Shown one piece after another: positions 5,957 to 23,208 of a stretch of 35,325 nucleotides of DNA (position 1 is its first letter; each line of letters begins with the position of its first letter). The notes under the pieces were generated by a model. It saw nothing but the letters and a program-made list of their open reading frames with translations. It was not told where the DNA came from and searched no databases. Location of the stretch: NCBI RefSeq assembly GCF_000826685.1, contig NZ_JROO01000053.1, positions 1-35,325 of the forward strand. The letters run 5' to 3'. This stretch comes from Streptomonospora alba (GTDB taxonomy: Bacteria > Actinomycetota > Actinomycetes > Streptosporangiales > Streptosporangiaceae). The translations under genes were made by a program, and so were the position numbers.

Positions 5957-5983
5957 CGCCAGCCAAGGCTGATCACTTTATTT

Positions 5984-6466: not shown

Positions 6467-6729
6467 GGCGGTCTCGGCGGCGTCTGCATTGCTCTCTCCG
6501 CGACGGGCGCGGGAGGGCATTCGCGTATCGCCGGAGGCGCGGACGGGCGCGGTCGCAATCCGCGGTAGCGCACAGACGGGCCCGCACGCCCATAGCAGAG
6601 CGAAAATGATTTATACCCGCTCGCCGCGCTTTCATGCGTCCGAATGCGAGCCGTCCAGGCGAATTCTCACGCACGCATTCCGCTCGGGCGGTGGCGCCAC
6701 TCCGCGGGCCACCGTCGCCCGGCGGTCGC
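6467..6729. other. Gene-free gap between convergent ispF and membrane protein gene
   Basis: No convincing coding sequence is visible. A 7-bp inverted repeat (CGGTGGC at 6689-6695, GCCACCG at 6708-6714) near its end could act as a shared terminator. Confidence 0.4.
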
Positions 6730-8960: not shown

Positions 8961-10364
8961 GTGAGTCTGCGCTTCTACGACACCAGTGCCCGCCAGGTCC
9001 GCGATTTCACCCCGCTGCGCGAGGGGCGTGCGTCGCTGTACCTGTGTGGTGCCACGGTGCAGGCGCCGCCGCACATCGGGCACATCCGGTCGGGTGTGAA
9101 CTTCGACATCCTCCGCCGGTGGCTGGAGTACCGGGGCTACCGGGTCGTCCTGTGCCGCAACGTCACCGACATCGACGACAAGATCATCAACGTCGCCGCC
9201 GACGAGGGCGTCGAGTGGTGGGAGGTCGCCGAGCGCAACCAGCGCGCGTTCACCTCCGCCTACGACATCCTCGGCTGCCTTCCCCCCACGGTCGAGCCGC
9301 GCGCCACAGGGCATGTGCCCGAGATGATCGAGCTGATGCGCCGGCTCATCGACCGCGGCCACGCCTACCCGGCCGACGACGGCTCGGGCGACGTCTACTT
9401 CGACGTCCGCTCTTACTCCGGCTACGGCGCGCTTTCCAACCAGCGGATCGAGCAGATGCGGGGCGCCTGCGACACCGACGACGACCGCGGCAAGCGCGAC
9501 CCCCGCGACTTCGCGCTGTGGAAGGGCGCCCGGCCGGGCGAGCCCAGCTGGGAGACCCCGTGGGGCCGCGGCCGCCCGGGATGGCACCTGGAGTGCTCGG
9601 CCATGTCGACCAAGTACCTGGGCGGTTCCTTCGACGTGCACGGGGGCGGGCTCGACCTCGTGTTCCCCCACCACGAGAACGAGGTCGCCCAGTCCAAGGC
9701 CGCCGGCGACGGCTTCGCCCAGTACTGGATGCACAACGGGCTCCTGCACATGAGCGGCGAGAAGATGAGCAAGTCGCTGGGCAACTCCCTGCTCATCCCG
9801 TACATGATCCGCAAGGTGCGCCCGGTCGAGCTCCGCTACTTCCTCGCCCAGGCGCACTACCGGTCGGTCATCGACTACTCCGACGAGGCGCTGTACGAGG
9901 CCGCGGCCGCCTACCAGCGGATCGAGGGCTTCCTGACCCGCGCGAGCGAGGTCGCGGGCACGATCGAGCGGCCCTCGGAGGTCCCCGACGCCTTCGCCGA
10001 GGCGCTGGACGACGACCTCGGCGTCTCGCCTGCACTGGCCGTCGTGCACAACGCGGTCCGCGAGGGCAACACCGCGATCGCCGAGGGCGCCAAGGAGCGG
10101 ATCTCCGAGCTCGGCGGCCGGGTGCGCGCCATGATGGACGTGCTCGGGCTCGACCCGCTCTCCGAGACCTGGGGGAGCGGCGGCGACTCCGGGCTGCGCG
10201 ACGTCGTCGACGCCCTGGTGGCGGTGGCCTTGGAGCAGCGCCAAGCCGCGCGGCAGCGCAAGGACTACGCTGCGGCCGACGCCATCCGCGACCAGCTGCT
10301 CACCGCCGGCGTCGCCGTCGAGGACACCCCGCGCGGCCCGCGCTGGGAGCTCCGCCGGGGCTGA
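8961..10364 (+). CDS. cysS: Cysteinyl-tRNA synthetase
   Basis: A 467-residue class I synthetase that charges tRNA-Cys. The start is taken as GTG 8961 ([10 protein letters not shown]), the usual actinomycete N-terminus; sequence upstream is arginine-rich and unlike the family. HIGH is at 38-41, KMSKS at 268-272, and the zinc ligands are visible: Cys29, Cys212 in WHLECS, His237 and Glu241 in PHHENE. The full anticodon-binding C-terminus argues against the shorter paralogue MshC, as does the rlmB neighbour. A 9-bp stem hairpin follows. Confidence 0.95.
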
Positions 10365-10411
10365 CAGGGGCTGAACGGCCGTCGGCCGGGTCGGCGGGGA
10401 ACGCCGTATCC

Positions 10412-10444
10412 GCGCCGCCGCTCGGGCGACGCGGACGGCGGCGC
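10412..10444 (+). terminator. Hairpin downstream of cysS
   Basis: A perfect 9-bp stem (GCGCCGCCG / CGGCGGCGC) with a 15-nt loop lies 47 bp after the cysS stop. It is a candidate terminator without a T-run. The remaining gap to rlmB (10445-10709) shows no supported gene. Confidence 0.45.
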
Positions 10445-10709
10445 ACGCGCGCTGCCGGGCCGCCGATGGCGCGTTCACCCGTCACGATCGGCGACCATGG
10501 AGGGGTGCCGTGTAATGCGGTCGGCCCTGGGGAACCGGCTGCGCGTCCGCAGGCGCAGGGCCGGGCCCGGTGAGGGCGGATCCGCCGCTGCGGAACGCCT
10601 CTCGGCGAAGGCAGGTACAGGCATCGAAGGCACCATGCGAGACCGCGGGCCCGAGACCGGGTCCGGCGGCGCGCCACCAGCGGTAACCGAAGGGTGAGGA
10701 CAGCAGGCC

Positions 10710-11747
10710 ATGCCGGCGAAGAAGAGCAAGAAGGGCCCCACCAAGGGCACCGGCGGCAAGGGGAAGCGCTCCCTGGAGGGCAAGAAGGGGACGCTTCCGG
10801 CTACGGAGCGCCATTGGTACGCCGATAAGATGCGCCGCTCTGCCAAGGGCACCGGCAAGCAGCCCGCCAAGGACGCCGACAAGCAGCCGGCCAAGGGCGC
10901 GGCGAAGCCGGCCGCTCCCGCGGCTCCCTCCCGCACCGGGGGCGGCGACTCCGGCGCCCGTCCCGGCAGCGACCTCCTCGTCGGCCGCAATCCGGTCATC
11001 GAGGCGCTGCGCGCGGGCTTTCCCGCCAAGCGGCTGTTCCTGGCCAACAGCCTGGATCAGGACGAGCGCATCACCGAGGCCGCGCGCCTGGCCGGCGAAG
11101 CAGGCCTTGACGTCCGCGAGGTCTCACGCTCGGAGCTGGACCGCCGCTGCGACAGCCAGGGCCAGCCGGGCGCCGCGCACCAGGGCCTCGTCCTGCTGAC
11201 CCGGCCCTACCGCTACTGGGATCCCGAGGACCTGCTCGAACACGCGCGGTCCCAGGCCGAGGAGGCCGGCGTCGCGCCGCTCATCATGGCCCTGGACGGG
11301 GTCACCGACCCGCACAACCTGGGGGCTGTGGCCCGCTCCGCGGCGGCCTTCGGCGCGCACGGCCTGCTGATCCCCGAACGCCGCGCGGCGGGCGTGGGCA
11401 TCGCCGCCTGGAAGACCTCGGCGGGCACGCTGGCCCGCCTCCCCGTCGCCCAGGCCACCAATCTCACGCGCAGCCTCAAGTCCTACAAGAGCTCCGGCGT
11501 CTTCGTGGCCGGCCTCGACGGCGACGGCGAGACCGTGTTGGACTCCCTGAACGTGGCGAGCGACCCCCTGGTCGTCGTGACCGGCTCGGAGGGCAAGGGC
11601 CTGTCCCGCCTGGTCCGCGAAACCTGCGACCAGGTCGCGCGCATCCCGATCGGCGGCGCCGAGTCCCTCAACGCCTCCGTGGCCGCCGGTGTCGCCCTCT
11701 ACGAGATCACCCGCCTCCGATCGGCCACCACGAAGTCCGGGCACTGA
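10710..11747 (+). CDS. rlmB: 23S rRNA 2'-O-methyltransferase RlmB (SpoU/TrmH family)
   Basis: A 345-residue SPOUT methyltransferase that methylates the ribose of G2251 in 23S rRNA. About 90 N-terminal residues are Lys/Gly/Pro/Ala-rich with repeats of the PAKG type, a tail often seen in actinomycete RlmB. The substrate-binding domain starts LLVGRNPVIEALRAG. The SPOUT domain shows MALDGVTDPHNLGAVARSA (motif 1), VVVTGSEGKGLSRLV (motif 2) and IPIGGAESLNASVAAGVAL (motif 3). The ATG follows a GAGG-containing stretch. cysS-rlmB order is conserved in actinomycetes. Confidence 0.94.
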   Translation: MPAKKSKKGPTKGTGGKGKRSLEGKKGTLPATERHWYADKMRRSAKGTGKQPAKDADKQPAKGAAKPAAPAAPSRTGGGDSGARPGSDLLVGRNPVIEALRAGFPAKRLFLANSLDQDERITEAARLAGEAGLDVREVSRSELDRRCDSQGQPGAAHQGLVLLTRPYRYWDPEDLLEHARSQAEEAGVAPLIMALDGVTDPHNLGAVARSAAAFGAHGLLIPERRAAGVGIAAWKTSAGTLARLPVAQATNLTRSLKSYKSSGVFVAGLDGDGETVLDSLNVASDPLVVVTGSEGKGLSRLVRETCDQVARIPIGGAESLNASVAAGVALYEITRLRSATTKSGH

Positions 11748-11801
11748 CCTGAAACCGGTAGCATGCCAATGTGCGCCCACGCAGCGCCGCGGGCCGCACA
11801 A

Positions 11802-11874
11802 GCCGACGTAGCTCAATCGGTAGAGCACTCGCCTTGTAAGCGATAGGTTAGGGGTTCGATTCCCCTCGTCGGCT
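11802..11874 (+). tRNA. tRNA-Thr (anticodon TGT)
   Basis: A 73-nt cloverleaf. The acceptor stem is GCCGACG/CGTCGGC, the D arm GCTC...GAGC, and the anticodon loop CTTGTAA gives TGT. The T arm is AGGGG TTCGATT CCCCT. The outermost anticodon-stem pair is a C-T mismatch. CCA is not encoded. The 3' part from 11841 is the integration site of the mobile element and is restored by the element's own copy. A strong hairpin follows at 11917. Confidence 0.93.
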
Positions 11875-11877
11875 CTA
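11841..11877 (+). repeat. attL core (37-bp direct repeat, tRNA 3' end)
   Basis: The 37 bp starting CGATAGGTTAGGGG and ending GGCTCTA are identical to 23106-23142. They begin in the anticodon stem of tRNA-Thr and run just past its end. Ungapped similarity beyond the core continues to about 11943. Confidence 0.93.
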
Positions 11878-11916
11878 TTTCTGTCCGAACCCGCAGGTCA
11901 GGGCAGCGGCACGACT

Positions 11917-11943
11917 CCGCCGCCCGGAGTCTCCGGGCGGCGG
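11917..11943 (+). terminator. Terminator of tRNA-Thr
   Basis: A perfect 12-bp stem (CCGCCGCCCGGA / TCCGGGCGGCGG) with a 3-nt loop lies 43 bp after the tRNA, followed by ATGCACATTTT. It lies inside the element, so the inserted tRNA uses a terminator brought by the element. A decayed equivalent sits beyond attR at 23182-23208. Confidence 0.7.
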
Positions 11944-11962
11944 ATGCACATTTTCTGCACAC
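11942..11962. promoter_or_regulatory. Candidate integrase arm site, left end
   Basis: GGATGCACATT-TTC-TGCACAC contains two TGCACA direct repeats. It matches 18 of 21 positions at 22977-22997 at the other end of the element, including the same spacing. Location close to both att cores suggests Int or Xis binding; this is inference. Confidence 0.5.
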
Positions 11963-11975
11963 TGACAGAGATCGC

Positions 11976-13160
11976 TTATGCGGCCTTCGAGTCGGTGAGC
12001 CTAGCCAGATGCTCGGCCCGTGTGGCGCCGAGAGCGTCGGCGACCTCGTCGAGCCGGTCCGGCCACAGGTGCCCGTAGGTGTCCAGTGTGATGCTGGGCT
12101 TGCGGTGGCCGAGCATCGTCTGCACGACGTAGACGTCCGCACCGGCGGCGATCGCCAGCGACGCGGCGGTATGCCGGAGCTTGTGCGGTGTGAGTCCGCG
12201 TCCGCCGAGGTCCGCGTCCTTGACAGCTCTGTTGAAGACCCGCGGACGCCAGTTCCGGAGCCAGATCGGACCGCCGCGCGGAGCCGTGAACAGCAGGTCA
12301 TCCGGGGACCGGTCGCCGACGAGGTCCCGTAGTTCCCCGACGAGGAAGGCCGGTACCGGCACCGACCGGACTTCCCCCTTCTTCGGTTGGCCGAGTGTCA
12401 GCTTCCCCTTGTTGTCCTTGTAGGCACGATCGATGTGCGCCCGCCGGTTGTCCAGGTTCAGCCGCCCCACGGTCAGCGCCGACGCTTCGGACCAGCGAAG
12501 GCCCGTATAGGCGAGGAAGCGGACGACCGTCCCATGCGTGCCTGCCGCCAGAGCGAGCCGTTCCACGTCCACATGCGACAGGTAGACGTGGCCGCGCGGC
12601 GGCAGCTTGGGCAGCGGGACGCCCCGCGCGGGGTTGCGGGTGATGAACTCGCTCTTGACCGCCCACTCCAGGACCGAGAGCAGCACCAGGTGAACGCCCC
12701 GGATCGTCGCGGCGCTGATCGGCTTGTCACCGCCTTTGCGGGGTTCGGTCTGGAGCGCGAGCACCCAGTCCGCCACGTCCTGATAGCGCACTGCCGAGAC
12801 GCGGACGCCGCCCCAGCGCGGTAGGACGTAGTTGTCCAAGTGGTCGCGGTAGAGATTGCGCGATCCCTCTTCAAGGTCGGTCTTGGACTTCCACCAGGAC
12901 TCGGCGACGGTTTCCACGCGCACCTTGCCGAGCGTGGGATCACGGTACGCGCCCTCGGAGATCTGGTTTTCGATCTCGGATCGGCGCTTCTCCGCTTCGG
13001 GCTTCTTCTTGAAGGTGCCGGCACTTCGGATGCGGCCGGTCGGATCGTAGTAGCGGACCATCCACCGGTTGGGGACTTGGCGCTTCGCCGCCTTGGCTTT
13101 GGCCACCGCATCCCGGTACTTCTTGTTCTGTTGCAGGTCGTTGACCCAGGCCCGAGCCAT
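11976..13160 (-). CDS. int: Tyrosine integrase of the AICE
   Basis: A 394-residue site-specific tyrosine recombinase that inserts and excises the element at tRNA-Thr. The N-terminal arm-binding part covers about 30-75, the SAM-like core-binding domain about 80-180 and the catalytic domain about 190-370. Catalytic residues are intact: Arg222 in TGLRWSE, a Lys near 261, His326 and Arg329 in PHKLRH, His352 in LGHRKPS and Tyr362. ATG 13160 is chosen for its AAAGGAG site; upstream sequence belongs to another frame. It ends 98 bp from attL, as in pSAM2-type elements, and follows xis. Confidence 0.94.
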   Translation of the reverse strand: MARAWVNDLQQNKKYRDAVAKAKAAKRQVPNRWMVRYYDPTGRIRSAGTFKKKPEAEKRRSEIENQISEGAYRDPTLGKVRVETVAESWWKSKTDLEEGSRNLYRDHLDNYVLPRWGGVRVSAVRYQDVADWVLALQTEPRKGGDKPISAATIRGVHLVLLSVLEWAVKSEFITRNPARGVPLPKLPPRGHVYLSHVDVERLALAAGTHGTVVRFLAYTGLRWSEASALTVGRLNLDNRRAHIDRAYKDNKGKLTLGQPKKGEVRSVPVPAFLVGELRDLVGDRSPDDLLFTAPRGGPIWLRNWRPRVFNRAVKDADLGGRGLTPHKLRHTAASLAIAAGADVYVVQTMLGHRKPSITLDTYGHLWPDRLDEVADALGATRAEHLARLTDSKAA

Positions 13161-13191
13161 CGGGGCCGCTCCTTTCCTGCCGTCCGACGGT

Positions 13192-13431
13192 TCAGGGCTG
13201 TTGCAAGACCCAGGCGTGCACCTCGTCGGGGACGTAGCGCACGTAGCGCCCGACGCGATGCGAGGGCGGGCCGGTCTCCATGTAGCGCCAGCGGTACAGA
13301 GTCTTCTCGGGGACGCACAGGTAGGCCGCGGTCTCGTGCACGGACCAGAGCTGAGACGCCGATCGTTGGCGAAGGCTGGTCTTGTCAGGAGCGGCGCCGG
13401 ACGGGTCGAGCTGAGCGGTCGCACGCATCAT
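13192..13431 (-). CDS. xis: Excisionase (helix-turn-helix, AlpA/Xis type)
   Basis: A 79-residue DNA-binding protein with a MerR-like winged helix: LWSVHETAAYLCVPEKTLYR is the helix-turn-helix, followed by GPPSHRVGRYVRYVPDEVHAWV, the wing. This is the usual Xis of AICEs, which directs the integrase towards excision. The start ATG 13431 overlaps the rep stop by 4 bp (ATGA); a second ATG follows directly at 13428. int starts 32 bp downstream. Order rep-xis-int is as in pSAM2. Confidence 0.85.
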   Translation of the reverse strand: MMRATAQLDPSGAAPDKTSLRQRSASQLWSVHETAAYLCVPEKTLYRWRYMETGPPSHRVGRYVRYVPDEVHAWVLQQP

Positions 13432-15101
13432 GCGGCCCTTTCTGCGGTTGCCGAGAGTTCGTCGGATCGGTGTTGCCGAGCGGCGTCGAGCTGGGCGCGG
13501 CGTTTGAGCGCTTCGCCGACGGCCCGGAGTAGGCGGTGTTCTCGGGGCGGGACGTCGGGGTCGGTGGGGCGCGCCAGTTCCCAGGCGTGGTTGCCGGAAG
13601 ACACGGAATCCAGCGCCGGAGCGCTTTCGTCGGGGTCGGCGTCGGGATCCACGCCGAGCGCGTCGAGGACCCACCGCAGTCGGTCCGCCTTGTGGTCGGC
13701 GACGGTCTTGCCCGACCACTTCCGAGACACCAGGACGCGGCGTCCGGCGTAGCCGAGATGTTCGCGCCGATGGGCTTTGTTGCGGCAGAAGCCCGGCACC
13801 ATGCCCGCTTTGGCGCCGTCCGGTTGGATGCCGTACCGGAGCCAGTTGGCGCAGCGCGGCGAGCAGGGTTCGAACCGCAGGGCTTCCACGAGCCGTTCGA
13901 CGTGCCGCTGTTGGGCGTCGGTCTCGACGGCGTGGCATTCGGCGATGTCCTTGGTCAGGTACTTCGCCAAATACCGGACGCACCGGTCGGCGTCCTCAGT
14001 GCCGGCCACCACGCCCTTGGCGTCAACCTGCGGCCCGAAGCGGACCACGTGCATGGGTTCGGCGTCCGGGTCGGCGTCGAGTGCGTCGAGCGCCTGTTCC
14101 CAGGTGGGCAAAACTTCGCCGGTCACAGGGTCGAGGTAGTTCCCGGTCGCCTCGTCGAAGACCGGCAGGTTCTCGCCCGCATAGACCGCCTCGTCGGCGT
14201 TGGGCCACCACACCTGGTGATACGTGGCCGCCGCGATCTGGCGCAGCTCCGCGCGCGGGATCGTGCCCCGCGTCGCCATGTGCAGGTGCGGCGCCAGCCG
14301 CCGCTGCGGCTCCACGGTCGCGAAGTACTGCACGTCGAACCCGGCCACGCGGCGCAGGTTCTGCACGAACCGGTCGACGAGCTTGGAGAAGTGCAGCGCG
14401 TCCCGCGCGGCCCGCCGGTAGTCATACGTGGAGGGGGCCACAGGTGTGCCGTCCGATTTCACGCGCCCGTAGGTGTCGCAGGTAAGCGTGAGGAACAGCG
14501 AGGGCCGGAATGTCCTGCCGGTGGCCGGATCCTCGTAGGCGCGGCCCACGGTGGTCTTGGCCATCTGCCGCTTGGGCAGGTCCGGCGCGTCCGGGCGCCG
14601 CTTGGTCGAGCGCACCCGACGCGACGTTGCCGACGAGGCGCCGCGCGAGACCGAGCCCCGCATGCCCGAGTCCGCGATCTCGGCGTCCAGGTCGGCGATG
14701 GCCTGATCCAACGCGGCCACCTCGTCGGCATCCGCCCCGCCCTCGTCGGCGAGCCGGTCCCGCTCGGCGGTCACCATTGCGCGCCGTTCCACCCACGCCC
14801 GCTGTACCTCGGACGGGTCATTCGGCGTGACAGTCGGTTCCTCGTCGAGGTGCCAACCCTCTTCGCACTGACTGCGCCGGATGGACCGCTTGCGCTTGGC
14901 ACACGACGGGCACCGGGATTCCAGCGTGGAGGAGCACGGGACGTCCACGATCTCGGTTCGGCCCGTGGTGATGTCGGTCCGCCGCAGGGACACGGGCCGG
15001 ATGCAGACGCCCTTGTCGGCGGCGATCTGCTCGGCCACCTCACGGGCGAGCGGTTGCGCTTGGCGCTCGGCGCGTGTGGACTTACCGGTCGGAGTAGGCA
15101 T
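13428..15101 (-). CDS. repSA: RepSA-like rolling-circle replication initiator
   Basis: A 557-residue replication initiator of the actinomycete RepSA type, which nicks the double-strand origin so that the excised element replicates by rolling circle. A Cys cluster (SRCPSCAKRKR near residue 65) may bind metal. The FLTLTCDTYGRVKSDGTP stretch and YFATVEPQRRLAPHLHMATR are family hallmarks. HLH at about 271-273 is the metal-binding HUH motif, and the Tyr residues of VRYLAKYLTKD near 370 are the likely nicking site. It overlaps tra by 1 bp (TGATG) and xis by 4 bp, so one operon. Confidence 0.9.
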   Translation of the reverse strand: MPTPTGKSTRAERQAQPLAREVAEQIAADKGVCIRPVSLRRTDITTGRTEIVDVPCSSTLESRCPSCAKRKRSIRRSQCEEGWHLDEEPTVTPNDPSEVQRAWVERRAMVTAERDRLADEGGADADEVAALDQAIADLDAEIADSGMRGSVSRGASSATSRRVRSTKRRPDAPDLPKRQMAKTTVGRAYEDPATGRTFRPSLFLTLTCDTYGRVKSDGTPVAPSTYDYRRAARDALHFSKLVDRFVQNLRRVAGFDVQYFATVEPQRRLAPHLHMATRGTIPRAELRQIAAATYHQVWWPNADEAVYAGENLPVFDEATGNYLDPVTGEVLPTWEQALDALDADPDAEPMHVVRFGPQVDAKGVVAGTEDADRCVRYLAKYLTKDIAECHAVETDAQQRHVERLVEALRFEPCSPRCANWLRYGIQPDGAKAGMVPGFCRNKAHRREHLGYAGRRVLVSRKWSGKTVADHKADRLRWVLDALGVDPDADPDESAPALDSVSSGNHAWELARPTDPDVPPREHRLLRAVGEALKRRAQLDAARQHRSDELSATAERAA

Positions 15102-16528
15102 CAGCCCATCACCCCCGCAGCGGCACGTTCACCGGCCATGTAGTCGATGTCGCCATCGGTGACGAAGGCGGCCCGCACGCGCACCGGGACGGGAGAGCCT
15201 TCCAGCTTCACGAAGGCCACGCCGGGCAGGTCGGGGCTGATCAGGTGCGCATCAGCGCCCCGGTCACGGGCGCCTTCCCCGAGGACCATGTCCACCTGTG
15301 ACGCCTCGTCCAGCCGGAGCGCGATCTTGTCCGGGAACAGGTTCCGGAGGTTCAGCACCTCCTTGCGCGGATCCTGCAGCGCCGCCAAGACGCAGAAGCC
15401 CACCGAGCGGCCCTGACTGGTCAGCGTCGCGATGGCGTTCTCGGCACGGCGGCGGATGTCGCGGTCGGGGTGGTAGGCGGTCAGGAACGCCACCTCGTCC
15501 AGCACCACCACGACGAATGGATCCCGCACCGAGGGCACGTGCACCCGCTTGCGGCCCGCGTAGCGTTCAGCGCGTTCCTGCATCGCCGCAACCGCCGCTT
15601 CGAGGAGGTCAACGGCGTCTTCCGCCGCATCGGCGTACCGGGCGAACAGATCCCGGCCGAAAGAAAGCTCCATCCGCTTGGGATCGATCGCCCACACCTC
15701 GGCCGTCCCCGCGCGAATGGCCGGAGTCATGGCGCGGACGGCCGACCACAGCACTGAGCCTTTACCGGCCCCGGTCACGCCGACGGTCAGCACGTGGGTT
15801 CCGTGCAGCCGCAGCCGCCACGGTTGCCCGTCCTCACAGCGTCCGACCGGCAGCGCAGCCAGGTCGATGCCGTGCGGCGAGTCCGGGACCGGTAGTGCGT
15901 CGATCTGCTCGGCGAGCATGTCCCGCCGAGGGAACTCCAGGACGAGGTCACGCGCCCCGCGTACTTCGACGCGGCAGGAGGGGGCGCCGAAGCCGTGCGC
16001 CAGCTCGGCCACCCGTTGTTCGAACTCGGCCGGGGCGGTGCCGGCCACCAGCTTCACCCGCACCCGATCGGCCCACGCCGAGCAGGTCACGCCGCGGATC
16101 TGCGGAAGGTACTGGCGTTCCAGGTAGGACTCGGCCAGGCCGGAGACCACCAGGACGGGTTGCCAGTGGCGCCGGTAGATCCACAGCCACCGCCAGGCGG
16201 CCAGCGCACGCCGTGCGAGGCGAGCCTTGAACGACTCCGGCCACCGGCGCCACCAGACCAGGAGAGCCACGTCGGCGAGCGTCCAGGCCACGGCCAGCCC
16301 CAGCCACCCGACGAGGTACGCCAGCAGCGCAGAGGCGCCCGCAGTTGCGACGGCCACGGGGAAGCGGAGCGGCAGCATGACGAGGAGCCGCACCAGGCGC
16401 CACAGGAAGCCCGCCACGACGACGATGCCCGGCGTCTCGACCACCGGAGTCGAGAAGCGGATGGTCTGCGCCGGTACCGGCGCGGTCGGTTGCACCTGCG
16501 TTGCTCCGGCGCTCTTGCGTCCCAGCAT
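15101..16528 (-). CDS. FtsK/SpoIIIE-type conjugal DNA translocase (TraB/TraSA-like)
   Basis: A 475-residue membrane-anchored hexameric DNA pump, the single essential transfer protein of AICEs. Residues about 45-105 hold hydrophobic helices. A cytoplasmic linker domain runs to about 235. Walker A is GVTGAGKGS near 250-258 and Walker B is FVVVVLDEVAFL. The C-terminal region (SQGRSVGFCVLAALQDPRKE) matches pSAM2 TraSA-type proteins. The start at 16528 is fixed by the family's N-terminal basic segment and by the 1-bp overlap with the upstream small gene. A C-terminal domain for recognising repeated DNA (clt) is not obvious. Confidence 0.9.
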   Translation of the reverse strand: MLGRKSAGATQVQPTAPVPAQTIRFSTPVVETPGIVVVAGFLWRLVRLLVMLPLRFPVAVATAGASALLAYLVGWLGLAVAWTLADVALLVWWRRWPESFKARLARRALAAWRWLWIYRRHWQPVLVVSGLAESYLERQYLPQIRGVTCSAWADRVRVKLVAGTAPAEFEQRVAELAHGFGAPSCRVEVRGARDLVLEFPRRDMLAEQIDALPVPDSPHGIDLAALPVGRCEDGQPWRLRLHGTHVLTVGVTGAGKGSVLWSAVRAMTPAIRAGTAEVWAIDPKRMELSFGRDLFARYADAAEDAVDLLEAAVAAMQERAERYAGRKRVHVPSVRDPFVVVVLDEVAFLTAYHPDRDIRRRAENAIATLTSQGRSVGFCVLAALQDPRKEVLNLRNLFPDKIALRLDEASQVDMVLGEGARDRGADAHLISPDLPGVAFVKLEGSPVPVRVRAAFVTDGDIDYMAGERAAAGVMG

Positions 16529-16779
16529 CACCGACCACCCCCGCTCTCCTCGTCGGCGCGGAGTGCGGCCAGTTCGGCGCGAGCCTCGTCGGCCACGGCA
16601 CGGGTTTCGGCGTCGTCGGTCTGGTCGGCGATGCGATCGAGGATGGAGGACTTCCAGGCCACCAGGGGCGCATCCGGGCCGGTACGAGAGTCGTTGAAGA
16701 CGGTGTTGCGGTGGGCGCGCAGGGCGTCCATGAACTCGGTGATCTCGCGCGGGCTGACCCGCGTTGACGGATCGGACAT
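16528..16779 (-). CDS. Small helical protein of the transfer operon
   Basis: An 83-residue hydrophilic, Ala/Glu/Arg/Asp-rich protein predicted to be mostly helical, with no motif I recognise (MSDPSTRVSPREITEFMDAL at the start). It precedes tra and overlaps it by 1 bp (TGATG), so it is probably translated with tra and may assist transfer or its control. A hairpin terminator separates it from the Pra-like gene upstream. Function unknown. Confidence 0.7.
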   Translation of the reverse strand: MSDPSTRVSPREITEFMDALRAHRNTVFNDSRTGPDAPLVAWKSSILDRIADQTDDAETRAVADEARAELAALRADEESGGGR

Positions 16780-16831
16780 ACTGAAGGGACACCTCTTCCA
16801 GAGATTTCGCAGGTCTCGCAGGAGGGTTGAA

Positions 16832-16867
16832 GGGGCGGCCGCAGGTGTTGGCGCACCAGGCCGCCCC
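16832..16867 (-). terminator. Hairpin after the Pra-like gene
   Basis: A perfect 9-bp stem (GGGGCGGCC / GGCCGCCCC) encloses an 18-nt loop with an inner GGTG/CACC stem. It lies 19 bp past the stop of the Pra-like gene and before the small transfer-operon gene, so it could terminate or attenuate read-through into the transfer genes. Confidence 0.6.
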
Positions 16868-16886
16868 GCTTGCGTTCAGCGGATGA

Positions 16887-17324
16887 TCAGCCCGCGTCCT
16901 TGGATCCCGAGGCACCCGCACCGGCAGCGGCCGGAGCCTTGCGGGAGGCGGCGCCGTTGCCGCCCGGCGTCTTCACCCCGCGTGCCCGAAGCGAGTACGC
17001 GACGCGGGGACGCCGCCCGGAGTCGTCCACGTAGGGCATGACCGACATCTGCTCGAACTCGACGGGCCGGAATGGCAGGCCGGGCACCTCGTCGGGCAGG
17101 GTCGGGCAGTGCTCGGCGGCCACCTTCACCTTCACCGACTTCTGCTTGCCCCGTGCTTCGGGATCGGCGTCGATCACGTCCACCGCCCACAGCGGCAGCC
17201 CGGACACCTTGTCCATCTGCGGACGCTTGGTCTCGAAGTCGGTAATGGGCTCCACGCCGAGCGCGTAGGCACCGTGCGGGAACACCGTCCCGAACTCCAC
17301 CGGCAGCGCACCCTGAATCGCCAT
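16887..17324 (-). CDS. Pra-like replication/integration/excision activator
   Basis: A 145-residue soluble protein of the family annotated in actinomycete elements as activator of replication, integration and excision (Pra of pSAM2). Recognisable parts are MAIQGALPVEFGTVFPHGAY at the start, SGLPLWAVDVIDADPEARGK near residue 45 and PVEFEQMSVMPYV near 90. The tail is Gly/Ala-rich. In pSAM2, Pra switches on the rep-xis-int genes; the position upstream of that operon fits. Its leader contains a very strong hairpin and an upstream GTAC palindrome. The name rests on recollection of family members. Confidence 0.65.
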   Translation of the reverse strand: MAIQGALPVEFGTVFPHGAYALGVEPITDFETKRPQMDKVSGLPLWAVDVIDADPEARGKQKSVKVKVAAEHCPTLPDEVPGLPFRPVEFEQMSVMPYVDDSGRRPRVAYSLRARGVKTPGGNGAASRKAPAAAGAGASGSKDAG

Positions 17325-17460: not shown

Positions 17461-17478
17461 GAGTACTAGTTCGTACTC
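17461..17478. promoter_or_regulatory. Operator-like palindrome GAGTAC-N6-GTACTC
   Basis: A perfect 6-bp inverted repeat spaced by TAGTTC overlaps the last codon of the XRE regulator gene and lies upstream of the Pra-like gene. A GTACTTTTAG half-site follows at about 17434. The GTACT core recurs at 19090-19102, ahead of the regulator's own operon. It is a candidate binding site of the XRE regulator. Confidence 0.5.
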
Positions 17479-18694
17479 AGAGTGCGCCCGTACGTCTGGC
17501 GAGCCCTTGCAGGGCCGGTCCCGCCGGGTCCTGGACGGTGAGCAGATCCCCGACGGCTTGGCGCACCAGCGGATGGCTGCGCACCTGCTCAGGCGTGATC
17601 TGCTCGGCCTGCTCCAGCGCGGAGACGGCCGCATCGGCGTTGCGCCGCTGGAGGTGCGCGCGCGCAACATCGATAAGGAACCGCCCCTGGCGCTCCGTCG
17701 ACAGGCCCGAGGTGTCGACACCGTCAGCCGCCCGCAGCGCTACCCCGGCATCACCCAGTTCCACCGCAACCGCCACCTCGTGCAGGGACACGTTGGTTGG
17801 CCCGAACTCGGTGTTGTAGTCGTTGCGATCGCCCCCCAGACGCTCAGCGACCGCCCGCGCCTGCGCGATGTTGCGATAGGCGGTGGTGGCCTCGTTGCGC
17901 CGAGCCGCAGCGACGGCGCGTTGCAGAGTCAGCGCACCGAACAGCGACATCGCTTCCAACTCGCCCCGATCGGCCAGGGGAGACAGCGCCTCACACGAGG
18001 TGCCGGCGGTCGCCTCCACCTGGTCGAAGTAGCCCGCCCCTTGGAAGGTCAGGCACAGCCGGAACTCACCGGCGGCCATCAGTAGCGGCTCATCAGCGCG
18101 TTCGGCCGCCGTGATCGCCCGATCAGCAGCGATCCAGGCCGCTTCGAACTCGCCGAGCTTGCTCAAAGCCGACGAGCACGCCTGATACGTAGTGTTCAGC
18201 AGCCGGAACAGCGGCACCCGCTGCCCGTTGGGCACCGAACGAGCAGCCGCCTCCAACTCCGGAACGAGCGCTTCGAGAAGCTCGGTCAGTTCCACATACC
18301 GGCTCGCATGCGTCAGGCTCCACGCCTCGTCCACCCGATCCCGCAGGGCGTCCACATCCGGAGCGGCGGTGTCGCCATCCCCGTTGCGCAGGATGGCGCT
18401 CAATGCGTGCGCACGGCTGAGCACCAGCCGCAGGCGGCTACTGCCGGGCGCCTCCTCGGCGGTCGAGGCGACGATGGGCGACTCGGCGGCCAGCTCCGAG
18501 AGCGGCACCTCCAGGACGTCGGCGACGGCTTCCAGCACCGACATGCGGTCGATCCGGCGGACACCGCGCTCGACCTGGGAGACCCAGGCTTCCGAGCGGT
18601 CGACGAGGCCGGCGAACTCCCGTTGGGAGAGTCCGCGGCGCTTGCGGTGCTGGGCGATCTTGCGCCCGAGCGCTTTCTGATACTCGTTGCTCAC
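17477..18694 (-). CDS. XRE-family regulator with TPR-like domain
   Basis: A 405-residue transcription regulator. Residues about 8-65 are a Cro/C1-type helix-turn-helix (GRKIAQHRKRRGLSQREFAG, then VSQVERGVRRI). The rest is an array of Ala-rich helix pairs resembling tetratricopeptide repeats, which in such proteins sense a peptide or partner. GTG 18694 overlaps the stop of the upstream monooxygenase gene by 4 bp (GTGA). It takes the place of KorSA/KorA repressors of other AICEs and probably silences transfer/excision; this is inference from position. Confidence 0.85.
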   Translation of the reverse strand: MSNEYQKALGRKIAQHRKRRGLSQREFAGLVDRSEAWVSQVERGVRRIDRMSVLEAVADVLEVPLSELAAESPIVASTAEEAPGSSRLRLVLSRAHALSAILRNGDGDTAAPDVDALRDRVDEAWSLTHASRYVELTELLEALVPELEAAARSVPNGQRVPLFRLLNTTYQACSSALSKLGEFEAAWIAADRAITAAERADEPLLMAAGEFRLCLTFQGAGYFDQVEATAGTSCEALSPLADRGELEAMSLFGALTLQRAVAAARRNEATTAYRNIAQARAVAERLGGDRNDYNTEFGPTNVSLHEVAVAVELGDAGVALRAADGVDTSGLSTERQGRFLIDVARAHLQRRNADAAVSALEQAEQITPEQVRSHPLVRQAVGDLLTVQDPAGPALQGLARRTGAL

Positions 18695-18999
18695 CCCGTG
18701 ACTCCCTTGGCGTCCTGCACCGTCAGGAAGTCGACTTCGACGGATGCGAGGTACTGGCCGCGCGCGTCGAGGAACCGCTTCACATGCGGCTGCTGCTCGT
18801 GGGCGTCGAAGGCGGCCCGGTCGCGGTACAGCTCGTAGAAGTACCGCTCAAGCGGCTTCTCCTCCACGGTGTGCACCGCGTAGACGAGCGTGCCCGGCTC
18901 ACTCTCGCGGATCTGCGGCAGCGTCTCCGCCACCAGCGCATCGAAGCCTGACGCGCTGTCCTCGTCCTTCAGCGTGAACCGCACCGCCAGTCCGAACAT
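18691..18999 (-). CDS. ABM-domain putative quinol monooxygenase
   Basis: A 102-residue ferredoxin-like protein of the antibiotic biosynthesis monooxygenase (ABM/YgiN) family. It shows the typical pattern of N-terminal strand (GLAVRFTLKD), the EPGTLVYAVHT strand, ERYFYELYRDRAAFDAHEQ and the HVKRFLDA helix. Members are cofactor-free oxygenases or haem-degrading enzymes working on quinol-like substrates; the substrate here is unknown. TGAGGAG precedes the ATG. It is cotranscribed with the XRE regulator (4-bp overlap), an unusual pairing. Confidence 0.85.
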   Translation of the reverse strand: MFGLAVRFTLKDEDSASGFDALVAETLPQIRESEPGTLVYAVHTVEEKPLERYFYELYRDRAAFDAHEQQPHVKRFLDARGQYLASVEVDFLTVQDAKGVTG

Positions 19000-19102: not shown

Positions 19103-19155
19103 TAGAGATGCAGCTCACTGTCTTGTGAGGTGCCGAACTCACCGAGGTGAGCCCT

Positions 19156-19575
19156 ATGACCCTCCACCCCAACGACGCCGACCGGACCCGCGTCGCCGCC
19201 TGCCGCTGGTTCCCCGGAAGCCCCTCCTCCGTGCGGGACGTGCGCCGGTTCATTGCGAACCGACTGGCCGACTGCCCCGAAGCCGACGACGCCGTCCTCG
19301 TCGCCAGCGAACTCGCCACCAACGCCATCCAACACACCGAGTCGGGCACCTGGACGACCGGCTTCCTCGTCATGCTGGAACACACCGAGGACGAGGGTGC
19401 CCTGATCACCGTCCACGACGCCGGCACCACGTCCAGCACGCCCTACGTGGAGGACTTCAAGCCCGACACAGACTGCGGACGCGGTCTGACCCTCGTGAAC
19501 GCGGTCGCCAAGAGCTGGGGCAGCCAAGGCGGGCCGGCCGAACGCATGAGCTGGTGTGTTGTGAGGTGTCACTAG
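19156..19575 (+). CDS. RsbW-like ATP-binding (HATPase) regulatory protein
   Basis: A 139-residue stand-alone GHKL ATPase domain of the type called HATPase_c_2, related to anti-sigma factor kinases. The N box is SELATNAIQHTESG (near residue 50), the G1 region HDAGTTSSTP and the G2 region DCGRGLTLVNAVAKSWG. ATG 19156 is preferred to GTG 19147 because GAGGTGAG just upstream acts as its ribosome site. It is the only plus-strand gene of the element and is divergent from the regulator operon. In actinomycetes such proteins often sit beside XRE regulators; the partner sigma or anti-anti-sigma factor is not here. Confidence 0.85.
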   Translation: MTLHPNDADRTRVAACRWFPGSPSSVRDVRRFIANRLADCPEADDAVLVASELATNAIQHTESGTWTTGFLVMLEHTEDEGALITVHDAGTTSSTPYVEDFKPDTDCGRGLTLVNAVAKSWGSQGGPAERMSWCVVRCH

Positions 19576-19617: not shown

Positions 19618-21318
19618 CTACTGAAATCGGATGCCGAACAATCCGCCATTGTCGTACTTATCAGTCATGCGAGCCGCTTCATGGTAAGAGACATCGAAGC
19701 CCTCATCAAAAGCCTTCTGCAGGTCGTCCGAATTCAAGCAAACAATATACTGCAAGCCTTCATTGTCGGCTGCCTCGGATGCCACCTTCAGTGCATTCGC
19801 CAATTGCCTACCCTCGACCCCATCATAAAGATGGCTATCATGAACTAAGAAATCTGGACCGCGCCCGTTTCGCTTGGCTGTCACCGCCATAGTCAAGTCG
19901 AAACAGAACATGGCCATACTTCTAACGCCTTCGCTGGCGTCCCCGCCAATAAATGGCGAAAAGGTGTAACCTGATTTTGAGGGTTCTATAGCCAAAGATG
20001 ACGGTCGACGACTACCATAAAGTGCGTAAGCAAAACTTGCGAAAGTATCGGCAATGCGCTCGATCTGCGATGCCCGATCCGTCAAGTCATTACTTACCTG
20101 CATCTCAAGCTCAGCAGATCGCAACTGCAGGTGCCTGTTACTATTCTCCCACCTGTCGACGACCGCGCGACGTTCCTGCAATTCCGAAATTCTCCCCGAA
20201 ATGGCTCCTAACTCCTGCTGTAGTTGGTTGTAGGTCTCTAGTGCGCCGCCAGATTCGAGGAGCCTCATAAGCTCGCCTCTGCGACGATCTAATTCTGCTA
20301 GGCGCATCCTGTCTGCGTCGATCTCTGCCGCAAGTGATGCTCTCTCAGAGTCTAAGTACCGACGTCGGTTGTTCACTACCGAACGGTGGAATTCTGTAAC
20401 CTGTTCAAATCTCCGGATGACAGATCCAGGTAGTGTTATCCCAACATTGTCATACACATCGCGAAGGTATTCATAATCTAGCTGCTCGGAATCTTCTCGT
20501 TCGATAGATTGTTCAATATCGCTGAGCCTCCTTCCGTCCATCACCAACTTATCGTTAAGAGAACGAATGTCCTTGCTTAGTTGGTCCGCAAGCTTTCGAT
20601 TCTCCGAGTAACGATCGACGACTTGAAAGTTGGATATTTGACTTTGAAGGGTCTCTCTTTCTATGTCTAGTGTGCGAATTTGAGCATCTAAGTCCTGAGC
20701 ACGTCCCAGGGTCATACCCAGGACAGGATCCCGAGCAGCCTTTTTTAGGTCCTTGAGACTTTTTTCAGCCTCTCGTAGCTCTTTAACTTGAGAGACTAGT
20801 CCAGTATCTAGAGAGAACAGATGTGCAAGAGTCGACAGCGTATCGACTTTGGACTGCTTGCTATGTGTTTCAGTCGGGTTGGCGAATCCTCCATTCGCAA
20901 CGTCTCTAAGATAGAAAGAAATAAGTGAACGATACGAAGGATCGAAGTCGCTCCCCTCCAGGCCAAACAATTCGTTGCCGAGTTGTCTACGCCAATCGGA
21001 CAGCTTTATACGTACGTCATCTACCTCGAGCATCCCGTGTGTCTCACCGGACCGAGCGACCAGGTGCCGGCGAGTATTAGTGGAAAACTCCAAGAAGAAA
21101 GTTGACTTATCTAGCTCGGGGATCCTTGTAACATGGTTAGGACGTGCGGTAGCACCGAGTAGGAAGTCTAGGATCTTAACTAGGCCGGTTTTGCCTACAG
21201 CGTTTCTGCTGTCGCTCGTACGGGCTGTCTTGGTTCGGTCTGCGACAACAATATTGAGCCCTGGACGAAACGATGCGCTTTTAAAGTTAGGAAGATCACT
21301 AGACAGTCTTTGAAGCAT
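19618..21318 (-). CDS. ABC-3C system ATPase (DUF2326-type, SMC-like)
   Basis: A 566-residue ABC ATPase of the DUF2326 family, the ATPase of ABC three-component (ABC-3C) systems. Walker A is SRNAVGKTGLVKILDFLLG with Lys43. Long coiled-coil arms run from about 185 to 420 (many heptads, e.g. LDAQIRTLDIERETLQSQ). A signature-like GGDASEGVRSMAMFCFDLTM follows. The Walker B/D-loop equivalent is FLVHDSHLYDG (Asp494), a DUF2326 hallmark. ATG 21318 is inside the end of the MC6 gene (20-bp overlap). The gene is clearly AT-richer than the rest of the window. It probably clamps or senses foreign DNA. Confidence 0.88.
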   Translation of the reverse strand: MLQRLSSDLPNFKSASFRPGLNIVVADRTKTARTSDSRNAVGKTGLVKILDFLLGATARPNHVTRIPELDKSTFFLEFSTNTRRHLVARSGETHGMLEVDDVRIKLSDWRRQLGNELFGLEGSDFDPSYRSLISFYLRDVANGGFANPTETHSKQSKVDTLSTLAHLFSLDTGLVSQVKELREAEKSLKDLKKAARDPVLGMTLGRAQDLDAQIRTLDIERETLQSQISNFQVVDRYSENRKLADQLSKDIRSLNDKLVMDGRRLSDIEQSIEREDSEQLDYEYLRDVYDNVGITLPGSVIRRFEQVTEFHRSVVNNRRRYLDSERASLAAEIDADRMRLAELDRRRGELMRLLESGGALETYNQLQQELGAISGRISELQERRAVVDRWENSNRHLQLRSAELEMQVSNDLTDRASQIERIADTFASFAYALYGSRRPSSLAIEPSKSGYTFSPFIGGDASEGVRSMAMFCFDLTMAVTAKRNGRGPDFLVHDSHLYDGVEGRQLANALKVASEAADNEGLQYIVCLNSDDLQKAFDEGFDVSYHEAARMTDKYDNGGLFGIRFQ

Positions 21319-21559
21319 GAGATGTCCTAACCAACTGCTCCTCCTGGAAATCGATGGCACCGACAGTAAAGAGAAAGTCCAAGGCCAAGGAAAACCACCA
21401 GAACGGGACTGATGACTCTAATTTGTTATCAATCCGCCATTTCGAGAATCTTTCCCAAACTGCACTGACAGAACCGGGGTGCTCAAGCTGGATCAAAATT
21501 TGAGCTCCCACAGAGATAATGGCCTGGTCGGTTCCAATGGCCTTGGACGGTAGTAACAT
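21299..21559 (-). CDS. ABC-3C middle component (MC6-like)
   Basis: An 86-residue protein lying between the other two ABC-3C genes. MLLPSKAIGTDQAIISVGAQ at the start, VSAVWERFSKWR in the middle and PFWWFSLALDFLFTVGAID near the end match the MC6 pattern: a small winged-helix-like unit thought to bridge the ATPase and the CTD protein. The ATG follows the CTD stop with no gap, and its 3' end overlaps the ATPase gene by 20 bp, so it is translated as part of one operon. Confidence 0.8.
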   Translation of the reverse strand: MLLPSKAIGTDQAIISVGAQILIQLEHPGSVSAVWERFSKWRIDNKLESSVPFWWFSLALDFLFTVGAIDFQEEQLVRTSHASKTV

Positions 21560-22471
21560 TTACGAACCCTCGGGAGGAGCCTTAAAGATTTCACACTGTT
21601 CGAAGAAGTACGTTACGACCATCATGGCTGCACTCCTTTCTTCAGCACCTCCTTCCCTCCCGGGGAACGCCTCAGCAATCAATTCATCACATAGTGCGTG
21701 AAATACAGCATCTGGGTTCTGTAGCTTTGCCAAGAGACCATCATAGCGCTCACGAAGGTTCTGGGACACCGAATCCTGTTCCCCTGGCGAACTTCTTTGG
21801 AAGAAATACCGAACATGATCCGTATGAGGTTGTATCCTTAGTATAAGTTGGACTACTTCGTCGCTGAACTCATTATGCTCTATCTTCCCGTAAGGGACCG
21901 GGGGGATACCCTCAAGATCGGTAGAGAGGCGCGTCCGAGCAAGGGACTCGACGCAACGGGCAATGTATGTCATTCCTGCCGGATGATCAGTAGGAGGAGC
22001 ACCCAACAGGTCGCACAATTGTTCGCGTGTAATATCTTCCGTACAGTGGTCCCACAAGACTTGAGGAGGCCAGCATTGAATTTCTACATCATCAGCTTCT
22101 TCCTGTAGATCCATCATCCCCTCTACAACCATATATGCAAGACCGATATAGTTGTTGTGCACAAAAGCCCACTTCTGCATTTTATCTTTCCAGTAAGTTC
22201 TCGCAGAAGTGAAATCAGTTTTCATTTTATTTTTTACATAATCTGGTTTTGGGTTCGTTGCTCCGTAGCAAGCTAGCATCAACCCTTCGACCCATCCGTC
22301 ACACCCCTTGTCTCCCCTTCCCGAAGGATCCACCTGATAGAACTTTCCTGGGTGCCTGGCCTGCATAAATTCGGTGACGAAATTTTGCCATTCGAAGCTG
22401 CTCTTCAGATGGCTCCGGGCCATAAACACACTACGGAACCATGCTCTATCCTGAGCGTCAGGCATTCCCAT
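21560..22471 (-). CDS. ABC-3C CTD protein with nuclease-like N-terminus
   Basis: A 303-residue protein, first gene of the ABC-3C operon. The N-terminal half reads FEWQNFVTEFMQARHPGKFY, then GRGDKGCDGWVEGLMLACYG (Asp54, Asp58). This resembles the PD-(D/E)xK-like domain of ABC-3C effector proteins, where a GDxGxDG motif is followed by QVYAP; here the last motif is ACYGA, without the catalytic Lys. A KMKTDFTSARTYWKDKMQKW helix follows. The C-terminal half (about 130-303) would be the ABC-3C CTD. Start ATG 22471 or 22465 is uncertain; no clear ribosome site. It is likely the effector or target-recognition subunit. Confidence 0.75.
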   Translation of the reverse strand: MGMPDAQDRAWFRSVFMARSHLKSSFEWQNFVTEFMQARHPGKFYQVDPSGRGDKGCDGWVEGLMLACYGATNPKPDYVKNKMKTDFTSARTYWKDKMQKWAFVHNNYIGLAYMVVEGMMDLQEEADDVEIQCWPPQVLWDHCTEDITREQLCDLLGAPPTDHPAGMTYIARCVESLARTRLSTDLEGIPPVPYGKIEHNEFSDEVVQLILRIQPHTDHVRYFFQRSSPGEQDSVSQNLRERYDGLLAKLQNPDAVFHALCDELIAEAFPGREGGAEERSAAMMVVTYFFEQCEIFKAPPEGS

Positions 22472-22581
22472 CGAGTCACACCGTTTCCACTGAGACTTGT
22501 GGGGGCAGTGTAGCTCCGTCCTCCTTCATTTTTAAGACTTTGGACTAATTCGTTGCCGAATCTGGCCATATGGGATCAAGG

Positions 22582-22604
22582 GCGACGGCGCTCCGCGCCG
22601 TCGC
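22582..22604. repeat. Perfect 9-bp hairpin
   Basis: GCGACGGCG and CGCCGTCGC are perfectly complementary around a CTCCG loop. It stands 9 bp before the larger hairpin at 22614, giving a tandem stem-loop structure. Confidence 0.7.
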
Positions 22605-22613
22605 TACCGGCTT

Positions 22614-22667
22614 GCCGTCCGCCGCTCGGGCTGCGGGCTGGCGCCCGGTCCCGAGCGTGCGGACGGC
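22614..22667. repeat. Long hairpin, 17-bp stem with one bulge
   Basis: 22614-22630 (GCCGTCCGCCGCTCGGG) pairs with 22650-22667 over 17 bp with a single bulged T at 22658. The 19-nt loop can form an inner GGGC/GCCC stem. No gene abuts it, so a simple terminator role is not obvious; a single-strand origin, nick site or structured RNA are options. Confidence 0.7.
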
Positions 22668-22880
22668 CGCCGGGGGTCGCAGCACCGCGCGCCGCTTGGA
22701 CCACATTCGCCCCATCGGGGTCGCGCCGTCGCCGGAACATGGCCAGTCAGAGCGCCGACAGGTTCGCATCGGAAGCCGCCCTATGGTCACTGGCGTTCTG
22801 GGTCCCGAGGCACTCGGTCGCGCGACTCTGTCTGTCTCGGTTGCCGGCACCGGCGCGACCGCGCACCTCGGACCGGGGAC

Positions 22881-22919
22881 GTGGTTGCTCGCTACTGTGG
22901 TTGCCGAGAGAGTGGTTGC
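22881..22919. repeat. Three direct repeats GTGGTTGC
   Basis: GTGGTTGC occurs at 22881, 22897 and 22912, with steps of 16 and 15 bp, and a weaker relative (CGGTTGCC) near 22838. Short tandem 8-bp repeats are the known form of clt/TRS sites read by FtsK-like TraB proteins; Xis sites are another option. Confidence 0.55.
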
Positions 22920-22976
22920 GCGTGCGCGCGTAGCCGACCATTGGCGCTGGTGGCCGCGATGGCTGAAGTTCCGAGC

Positions 22977-22997
22977 GGATGCACATTAGATGCACAC
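22977..22997. promoter_or_regulatory. Candidate integrase arm site, right end
   Basis: GGATGCACATT-AGA-TGCACAC, in the same orientation as its 18/21 match at 11942-11962. It ends 108 bp before the attR core. Confidence 0.5.
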
Positions 22998-23105
22998 GGC
23001 ATCGAGAAGGCCCGGGAAACGGTGCGAACCGGCGCGCAGGCCGACGCCCAGCTCAGCGGCGGTCCGGGGGAGTGGCCGCAGCCCAGCAGCACCCCCGCAG
23101 GCTAA

Positions 23106-23142
23106 CGATAGGTTAGGGGTTCGATTCCCCTCGTCGGCTCTA
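23106..23142 (+). repeat. attR core (37-bp direct repeat)
   Basis: Exact copy of 11841-11877. It is only the 3' part of tRNA-Thr (no acceptor 5' half upstream), so it is not a tRNA gene. The flank to about 23208 is an ungapped, diverged copy of 11878-11943, including the 16-bp block GCAGGTCAGGGCAGCG at the same offset. Confidence 0.93.
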
Positions 23143-23208
23143 ATCCTGCCCGAACTAGCAGGTCAGGGCAGCGACACGACTCCTCTGCCCGAGGACTCCA
23201 GGCGGCGG

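Follow-up and report, generated by a model that had tools for sequence, protein, structure and literature searches.

Three minus-strand genes at positions 19,618 to 22,471 of a 35,325-nucleotide stretch from Streptomonospora alba (contig NZ_JROO01000053.1; the whole stretch is hereafter the window) form a compact cassette inside an 11.3-kb mobile element integrated at a tRNA-Thr gene. An earlier note, made from the sequence alone, had read them as a tight operon encoding an ABC-three component (ABC-3C) conflict system on a conjugative element, with an ATPase of DUF2326 type at its core. The cassette has the following features, with ATPase residues numbered throughout from the GTG at 21360, where the mechanically listed open reading frame (ORF) opens.

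22471-21560, minus strand: effector gene, 303 aa; putative N-terminal Mrr-like PD-(D/E)XK-type domain (hhalign) and C-terminal CTD10 domain, a predicted docking domain (Pfam)
22265-22312, minus strand: effector codons 54-69, D54...D58-G59...C68-Y69; D54, D58, G59 and Y69 identical in 42/42 aligned systems
21559-21299, minus strand: MC6 middle component, 86 aa (Pfam MC6, E = 1.3e-17)
21318-19618, minus strand: DUF2326 SMC-like ABC ATPase, 566 aa from the ATG at 21318
21187-21210, minus strand: Walker A, SRNAVGKT; R52, N53, G56 and K57 invariant in 41 sequences
19819-19851, minus strand: Walker B region, FLVHDSHLYDG; H507, D508 and S509 invariant in 41 sequences

A DUF2326-type ABC-3C cassette

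The tight three-gene operon described in the earlier note is present: the last effector base, 21560, is followed by the MC6 start at 21559, a gap of 0 bp, and the ATPase start overlaps MC6 by 20 bp. We set this start at ATG 21318 because all 41 aligned ATPases, that of the window among them, have a Met at position 15. Each gene is poor in GC (effector 48.8%, MC6 47.9%, ATPase 49.4%), and the cassette as a whole, at 49.2%, lies far below the remaining element (68.6%) and the chromosomal part of the window (72.2%). A scan for promoters and terminators was uninformative, giving 1 promoter-like site against 2.1 expected and 0 terminators against 3.2 expected.

Profile searches established the identity of all three genes. 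Pfam matches above cut-off were obtained for DUF2326 in the ATPase (E = 1.3e-34, residues 446–579), MC6 in the middle gene, and CTD10 in the effector (E = 1.9e-11, residues 175–297), and the Walker A and HDSHLYDG motifs cited in the earlier note were both located in the ATPase ORF. The PADLOC model PDC-M68B matched the ATPase at 4e-134 over residues 15–579 (565 of 580 aa), while PDC-M68A matched the effector C-domain alone (1.7e-10, residues 189–299), with the N-domain outside the match; an NCBIfam scan of the cassette proteins returned no match near any cut-off. These results support the assignment of the cassette to the ABC-3C systems of CTD10-MC6-DUF2326 type (PF20275, PF20293, PF10088), which it resembles in all three components, their order and their close packing, and to the PADLOC candidate PDC-M68. 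Compared with other systems of this type nothing essential differs, although the window copy sits on an integrative element and has a GC content far below that of its carrier. The system is of a known kind, since relatives already carry the name 'ABC-three component system' in RefSeq.

The alternative that the ATPase is a housekeeping RecN/SMC protein was set aside. Of 41 aligned ATPases, all 41 match DUF2326, 20 match AAA_23 (best 3.3e-7), and only 4 match SMC_N at E ≤ 0.01 (best 0.0041); the protein thus does not side with the housekeeping family, a grouping that would have counted against the reading in the earlier note. In all 41 sequences the Walker B Asp is followed by Ser509, at the place where a catalytic Glu is usual; the Glu-to-Gln change that is usual, though not strict, in Lamassu is therefore absent. 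A pattern requiring HDS recovered 79 of 80 genome loci.

Pfam also reports CTD10 within the ATPase, in 41 of 41 members (best 6.3e-30; window residues 277–383, positions 20212–20532), as it does in 28 of 28 effector members. We considered a docking domain common to both proteins and rejected it: profile–profile comparison of the two segments gave 0.2%, and hidden Markov models (HMMs) made from one protein gave 0 matches in its partner. Because the ATPase and effector segments are unrelated by profile comparison, the CTD10 match in the ATPase is likely an artefact, and the Pfam model most likely mixes two unrelated domains. Annotation pipelines may inherit the CTD10 label on the ATPase.

Relatives are numerous but patchy. 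On plasmids, tblastn matches to the ATPase came from 54 records (31 typed as mobilizable or conjugative) and those to the effector from 28; among the ATPase plasmid matches listed, 38 of 40 bear the name 'ABC-three component', and the top relative lies on Paenarthrobacter aurescens pTC2 (46% and 49%). The pTC2 locus (L009) includes an MC6 gene at 7715-8020 (Pfam 7.4e-15) that is absent from the record's gene table, and a resolvase/recombinase-family gene adjoins or lies near the ABC-3C operon on plasmids L009, L015, L016, L018 and L022. The genome collection contained at least 593 stretches with a pattern match, at least 536 of which encode a relative; our genome-locus analyses use the best 80 of these. 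At the whole-genome level, 3 of the 60 related genomes have DUF2326, as do 6 of the 396 from the phylum, the genome of origin being counted in both. No close relatives were found among viral contigs, and phage records gave two distant ATPase matches. A search for the Cap4 family matched 3 of 149 genomes.

In an ATPase tree of 46 rows, the window sequence shares a branch with those of Streptomyces, Actinomadura and Micromonospora (99/97), joined next by Pseudonocardia (88/82). The copy in the same-genus genome G001 is only 37% identical to the window ATPase. Together, the tree placement and this low identity point to horizontal spread of the cassette. Distant ABC-3C operons (ATPase 37%) lie at 8401-11322 of L146 and 7055-9961 of L147, in same-genus and same-family genomes, and no AICE backbone genes (those of actinomycete integrative and conjugative elements) were found within 18–19 kb around them. 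The cassette lies more than 5 GC points below its flank in 39 of the 78 genome loci with enough flank.

Effector and ATPase co-vary. Their distance matrices correlate at r = 0.952 across 42 non-redundant systems, with 0 of 2000 permutations as high (highest 0.2); this value covers effector and ATPase, not MC6, and kinship of the hosts can raise it without interaction. Close packing and this co-variation together indicate that the three genes form one unit.

The effector and its exchangeable N-domain

A first extraction from the 80 genome loci gave 72 effectors of GD...DG type, 4 classed as 'other' and 4 loci in which none was found; of the four others, L068 belongs to the GD...DG type, its motif being shorter, and three (L034, L038, L047) are apparently cut or frame-shifted. 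A second extraction required the motif, in a pattern without the Tyr, together with a downstream F[VS]HN, and yielded 61 effectors with 19 loci left out. Adding 18 further systems (the window and 17 of 18 plasmid loci, L011 being omitted) gave 79 examined effectors. A Tyr follows the GD...DG strand in 73 of these (ACY 30, QCY 26, QSY 10, others 7), and the remaining six comprise five HNH-type effectors and one Mrr/MC8 system. Across the 42 aligned systems G53, D54, D58, G59, Y69, K82, F103, V104, H105, N106 and G110 are identical, and D86 is kept in 40.

Profile–profile comparison suggests what this domain may be. With hhalign, the N-domain matched four Mrr/LmuA sequences at 89.5% (E = 2e-6; 80.5% with query and template swapped) and 25 Mrr_cat sequences at 73.7% (E = 2.9e-5), where the E-values are those of single comparisons and the Mrr profiles are small. 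As controls, the effector C-domain and segments of the ATPase reached at most 2.6%, and HNH N-domains 0.1%. The likeness to Mrr-type nucleases comprises an FE helix, the GD..DG strand and then a Cys ahead of the key position: one alignment sets Mrr FQCK opposite effector ACY, and the other stops at the Cys that precedes the Tyr. A simple pattern finds (Q/E)xK in 22 of the 25 Mrr_cat sequences. The PADLOC LmuA model PDLC03852 matches 21 of 28 effector members at E ≤ 0.1 (best 3.1e-7). Sequence comparison with solved structures gave one profile match for the effector and two for the ATPase, all at chance level (E ≥ 0.21). We regard the N-domain as a remote Mrr-like PD-(D/E)XK match, its nuclease type being assigned by remote homology.

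The N-domain can be replaced. Five of 18 systems (the window and 17 of 18 plasmid loci) combine MC6 and DUF2326 with an effector of HNH type, as assigned from sequence pattern (L018, L021, L023, L024, L025). Among the four scanned with Pfam, HNH_2 was found in L021 and L025 and CTD10 in L018, L024 and L025; the L023 effector, outside that scan, is annotated HNH in RefSeq. The effector C-domain HMM matches all five. The four HNH rows retained in the ATPase tree form one branch (92/96), placed among Tyr-type rows, with midpoint rooting and long branches leaving the branching order unsure. Because an HNH domain replaces the N-domain beside the same MC6 and DUF2326, the common output of these effectors is probably nucleic-acid cleavage.

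The integrative element and its cargo bay

The cassette lies within an element with the following features.

11841-11943, plus strand: attL, direct repeat formed by the 3' end of tRNA-Thr(TGT) and flank; tRNA at 11802-11875
11976-13427, minus strand: tyrosine integrase (PF00589, 9.2e-21)
13428-15128, minus strand: RepSA replication initiator, pSAM2 type (PF20199, 2.7e-98)
15101-16921, minus strand: FtsK/SpoIIIE (TraB-like) DNA translocase (PF01580, 3.6e-8; NF041214, 1.3e-10, below cut-off)
16887-17324, minus strand: AICE protein of 145 aa without Pfam match, kept in related AICEs
17477-18694, minus strand: helix-turn-helix regulator (PF13560, 7.5e-13)
18691-18999, minus strand: ABM-domain backbone protein (PF03992, 2.3e-13)
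19147-19575, plus strand: HATPase_c_2 (anti-sigma-like) gene (PF13581, 2.6e-8); its stop codon marks the left bay boundary
22554-23105: attR-proximal module, the right bay boundary, opening with TTGCCGAAT and then a GC-rich hairpin
23106-23208, plus strand: attR, an 88% copy of attL (103-bp repeat)

The conjugative element of the earlier note is borne out by the integrase, RepSA, the FtsK/TraB-like protein and the 103-bp direct repeat at tRNA-Thr. By its gene content it is an 11.3-kb AICE of pSAM2 type, predicted to be self-transmissible: it shares with pSAM2-type AICEs the integrase, RepSA, the FtsK/TraB-like protein and att repeats at a tRNA 3' end, and differs in carrying an ABC-3C cassette in a bay beside attR. 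The bay junctions, the HATPase stop codon on the left and the attR-proximal module on the right, are seen directly in the empty bays of two related AICEs (L156, L159). Of 24 other AICEs, 21 contain the attR-proximal module at least partly, and the remaining 3 are truncated by contig ends. In its hairpin (22554–22620) the stem appears, as judged by eye, to co-change between elements.

In genome G004 the same AICE lies beside the same tRNA (87% over 8.6 kb, of which about 0.8 kb is chromosome), and a 440-aa gene replaces the cassette. At L143, in genome G005, the tRNA and left flank both match the window and the AICE is absent, although 98 bp like its int-proximal end persist; sequence like window 32.6–34.4 kb resumes about 1.2 kb on, and the 23.2–32.5 kb stretch is missing. 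The L143 tRNA site is free of this AICE and otherwise not identical. Neither L143 nor L144 counts as a simple unoccupied site, the former because it keeps this remnant and the latter because it shows left flank and tRNA only. At 1851-2186 of L145 (G001) a RepSA fragment lies beside tRNA-Thr, perhaps the remains of an AICE that decayed there.

The earlier note had suggested surveying DUF2326 neighbours in other AICEs. This survey placed RepSA or FtsK homologues in the flanks (≤7 kb) of 3 of 80 genome loci (L029, L036, L050), and we also compared the cargo bays of 25 AICEs, window included. Both borders are visible in 22, and 3 are cut by contig ends; where the HATPase gene was not found, the left border was set at an earlier backbone gene, and such bays include other backbone genes. 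Thirteen of the 22 bays hold at least one ORF under 56% GC, two are empty, and seven have GC-rich ORFs only.

Pfam was run on 16 bay proteins, a subset of the bay ORFs. The L150 bay (5889–6773, in an AICE of G005) holds a KwaB (Kiwa) gene (2.3e-9), preceded by an 84-aa ORF, and the L151 bay (10072–12679) encodes NA37 (8.5e-12) and RelA_SpoT (4.1e-17), the latter of a family that we take to be defence-related. Two other bays thus appear to hold genes of defence-related families. Elsewhere, the L140 bay (1265–2789) gave DUF6731 (6.4e-7) and a second protein with below-cut-off matches only, as did the bay proteins of L152 and L160; L148, whose bay is cut by a contig end, gave DUF6414 slightly under its cut-off; and for L139, L141, L142, L153, L162 and L166 there was no Pfam match at E ≤ 0.1. 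NCBIfam, run on 6 of the 16 proteins, returned nothing at 0.01. Low-GC bay genes lie at 2625-3947 of L139, 3975-5060 of L141, 10614-11915 of L153, 8479-9399 of L162 and 10829-11917 of L166; the L139 and L166 proteins form one family (24% over 381 aa), their genes having GC contents of 48% and 33%. These low-GC genes, with those of the L140 and L151 bays, are candidates for undescribed defence genes.

Proposed mechanism and alternatives

On balance we favour, with reasonable though not high confidence, the reading that the cassette encodes a CTD10-MC6-DUF2326 ABC-3C system, that the AICE carries it as exchangeable cargo, and that its SMC-like sensor and docked nuclease would be triggered by foreign DNA. 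Support comes from the protein families, the effector–ATPase correlation, the match of the N-domain to Mrr, the HNH exchange, the KwaB and RelA/SpoT bays, and the Lamassu background; a defence or conflict role in particular is suggested by family, effector type and the company kept in the cargo bay. Passages of the literature place ABC-3C within the Lamassu superfamily (PMC10586767; PMC12409362), describe Lamassu as sensing DNA ends and topology (PMC12904381), report cargo swapping and phage-resistance cargo as already known for AICEs (PMC9513070), and link genes near PADLOC systems to AICEs (PMC11706625).

In the proposed mechanism, the DUF2326 protein would form an SMC/Rad50-like dimer that binds ATP, with hydrolysis slow or absent because the Walker B Glu is Ser. 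The dimer may probe DNA for ends, hairpins, stalled forks and similar structures that arise when foreign DNA enters or replicates, with MC6 as adaptor and the effector docked through its CTD10 domain. Once the complex is locked on foreign DNA, release or oligomerisation of the effector would let its PD-(D/E)XK-like domain cleave DNA, so that the invader is stopped or the infected cell arrested or killed. We infer, mostly by analogy with Lamassu, that the ATPase dimerises and responds to DNA, that MC6 is an adaptor, that the effector docks and is released once activated, and that the outcome is abortive. As described in passages of PMC10586767, Lamassu/DdmABC likewise combines an SMC-like ATPase that lacks the Walker B Glu, a small middle protein, and an effector with an enzymatic N-domain and variable C-domain, but LmuB generally has Gln where the window ATPase has Ser. 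A further difference is that the window cassette has MC6 where DdmB has DUF6521 (PMC12409362, in part).

Several observations weigh against parts of this proposal. LmuB models match the window ATPase weakly and partially (2.2e-10, best stretch residues 326–511), PDC-M68B fitting far better. The catalytic Lys of (E/Q)xK in Mrr-type nucleases has a Tyr in its place in all 73 examined effectors of GD...DG type, Pfam leaves the N-domain uncovered in all 28 members scanned, and an N-domain HMM, run over three forward frames of 13 loci, found two Mrr-type ORFs and missed the LmuA of L107. Among the bays, those with GC-rich ORFs only amount to 7 of 22, the L165 bay carries metabolic-type genes (aminotransferase and FGE-sulfatase), and PADLOC on 6 of the 16 bay proteins gave Cas4 at 0.038 as its best match. 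AICE cargo is often decaying, according to passages of PMC9513070, and a literature search by name found no experiment on a DUF2326/MC6 system.

A broader proposal, that immunity genes are swapped in and out of the bay and these AICEs are defence shuttles, with most other low-GC bay genes serving undescribed defence and the effector belonging to a PD-(D/E)XK class that uses Tyr and a displaced Lys, is one we consider less likely than not, its odds being lowered because PADLOC on six bay genes came out empty.

The same machine could instead be aimed at rival conjugative elements or plasmids rather than phages, the AICE guarding its host and tRNA-Thr site; we judge this unlikely, though worth weighing. 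The typed mobilizable or conjugative plasmids among the ATPase records and the three genome loci near RepSA or FtsK homologues are consistent with it, and competition between elements is plausible because many relatives hold several RepSA copies. TraB-type AICE transfer moves double-stranded DNA, and an AICE travelling in this form would need to escape its own system. Passages of PMC10586767 report that Lamassu/DdmABC also restricts plasmids. Against this reading stands Kiwa, a gene of which occupies one related bay and which PMC12904381 lists among anti-phage systems.

Somewhat less probable still is that the effector is no longer a nuclease, its Tyr-for-Lys form binding DNA or blocking replication while the HNH versions represent the active branch. 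The universal Tyr substitution and the remoteness of the Mrr profile similarity would fit such a loss, but D54, D58, Y69, K82, H105 and N106 are identical in all 42 aligned systems and D86 is kept in 40, and because these residues are conserved they suggest a maintained active site with its Lys moved to the invariant K82, downstream of the Mrr position. Either outcome, displacement of the catalytic Lys to K82 or loss of activity, is possible. An addiction module stabilising the AICE is highly improbable: a nuclease-type effector that shares an operon with two partners and the toxin-antitoxin cargo reported for AICEs (PMC9513070, in part) would suit it, but none of the three genes is antitoxin-like and same-family AICEs with empty bays exist (L156, L159).

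The system of a sensor and docked nuclease favoured here belongs to a kind already known, and what the present analysis adds is the AICE with its cargo bay, the Tyr-for-Lys N-domain, the HNH exchange and the CTD10 artefact. DUF2326 ABC-3C systems are common on plasmids and in genomes, yet literature searches by name turned up no experiment on them. A clean functional test is possible because the cassette is compact, intact as judged by its ORFs, and carried on a small mobile element whose natural relatives include some with empty bays. Furthermore, the bay supplies a list of further cargo genes as candidates for testing, and the Tyr-for-Lys effector poses a concrete question of enzymology.

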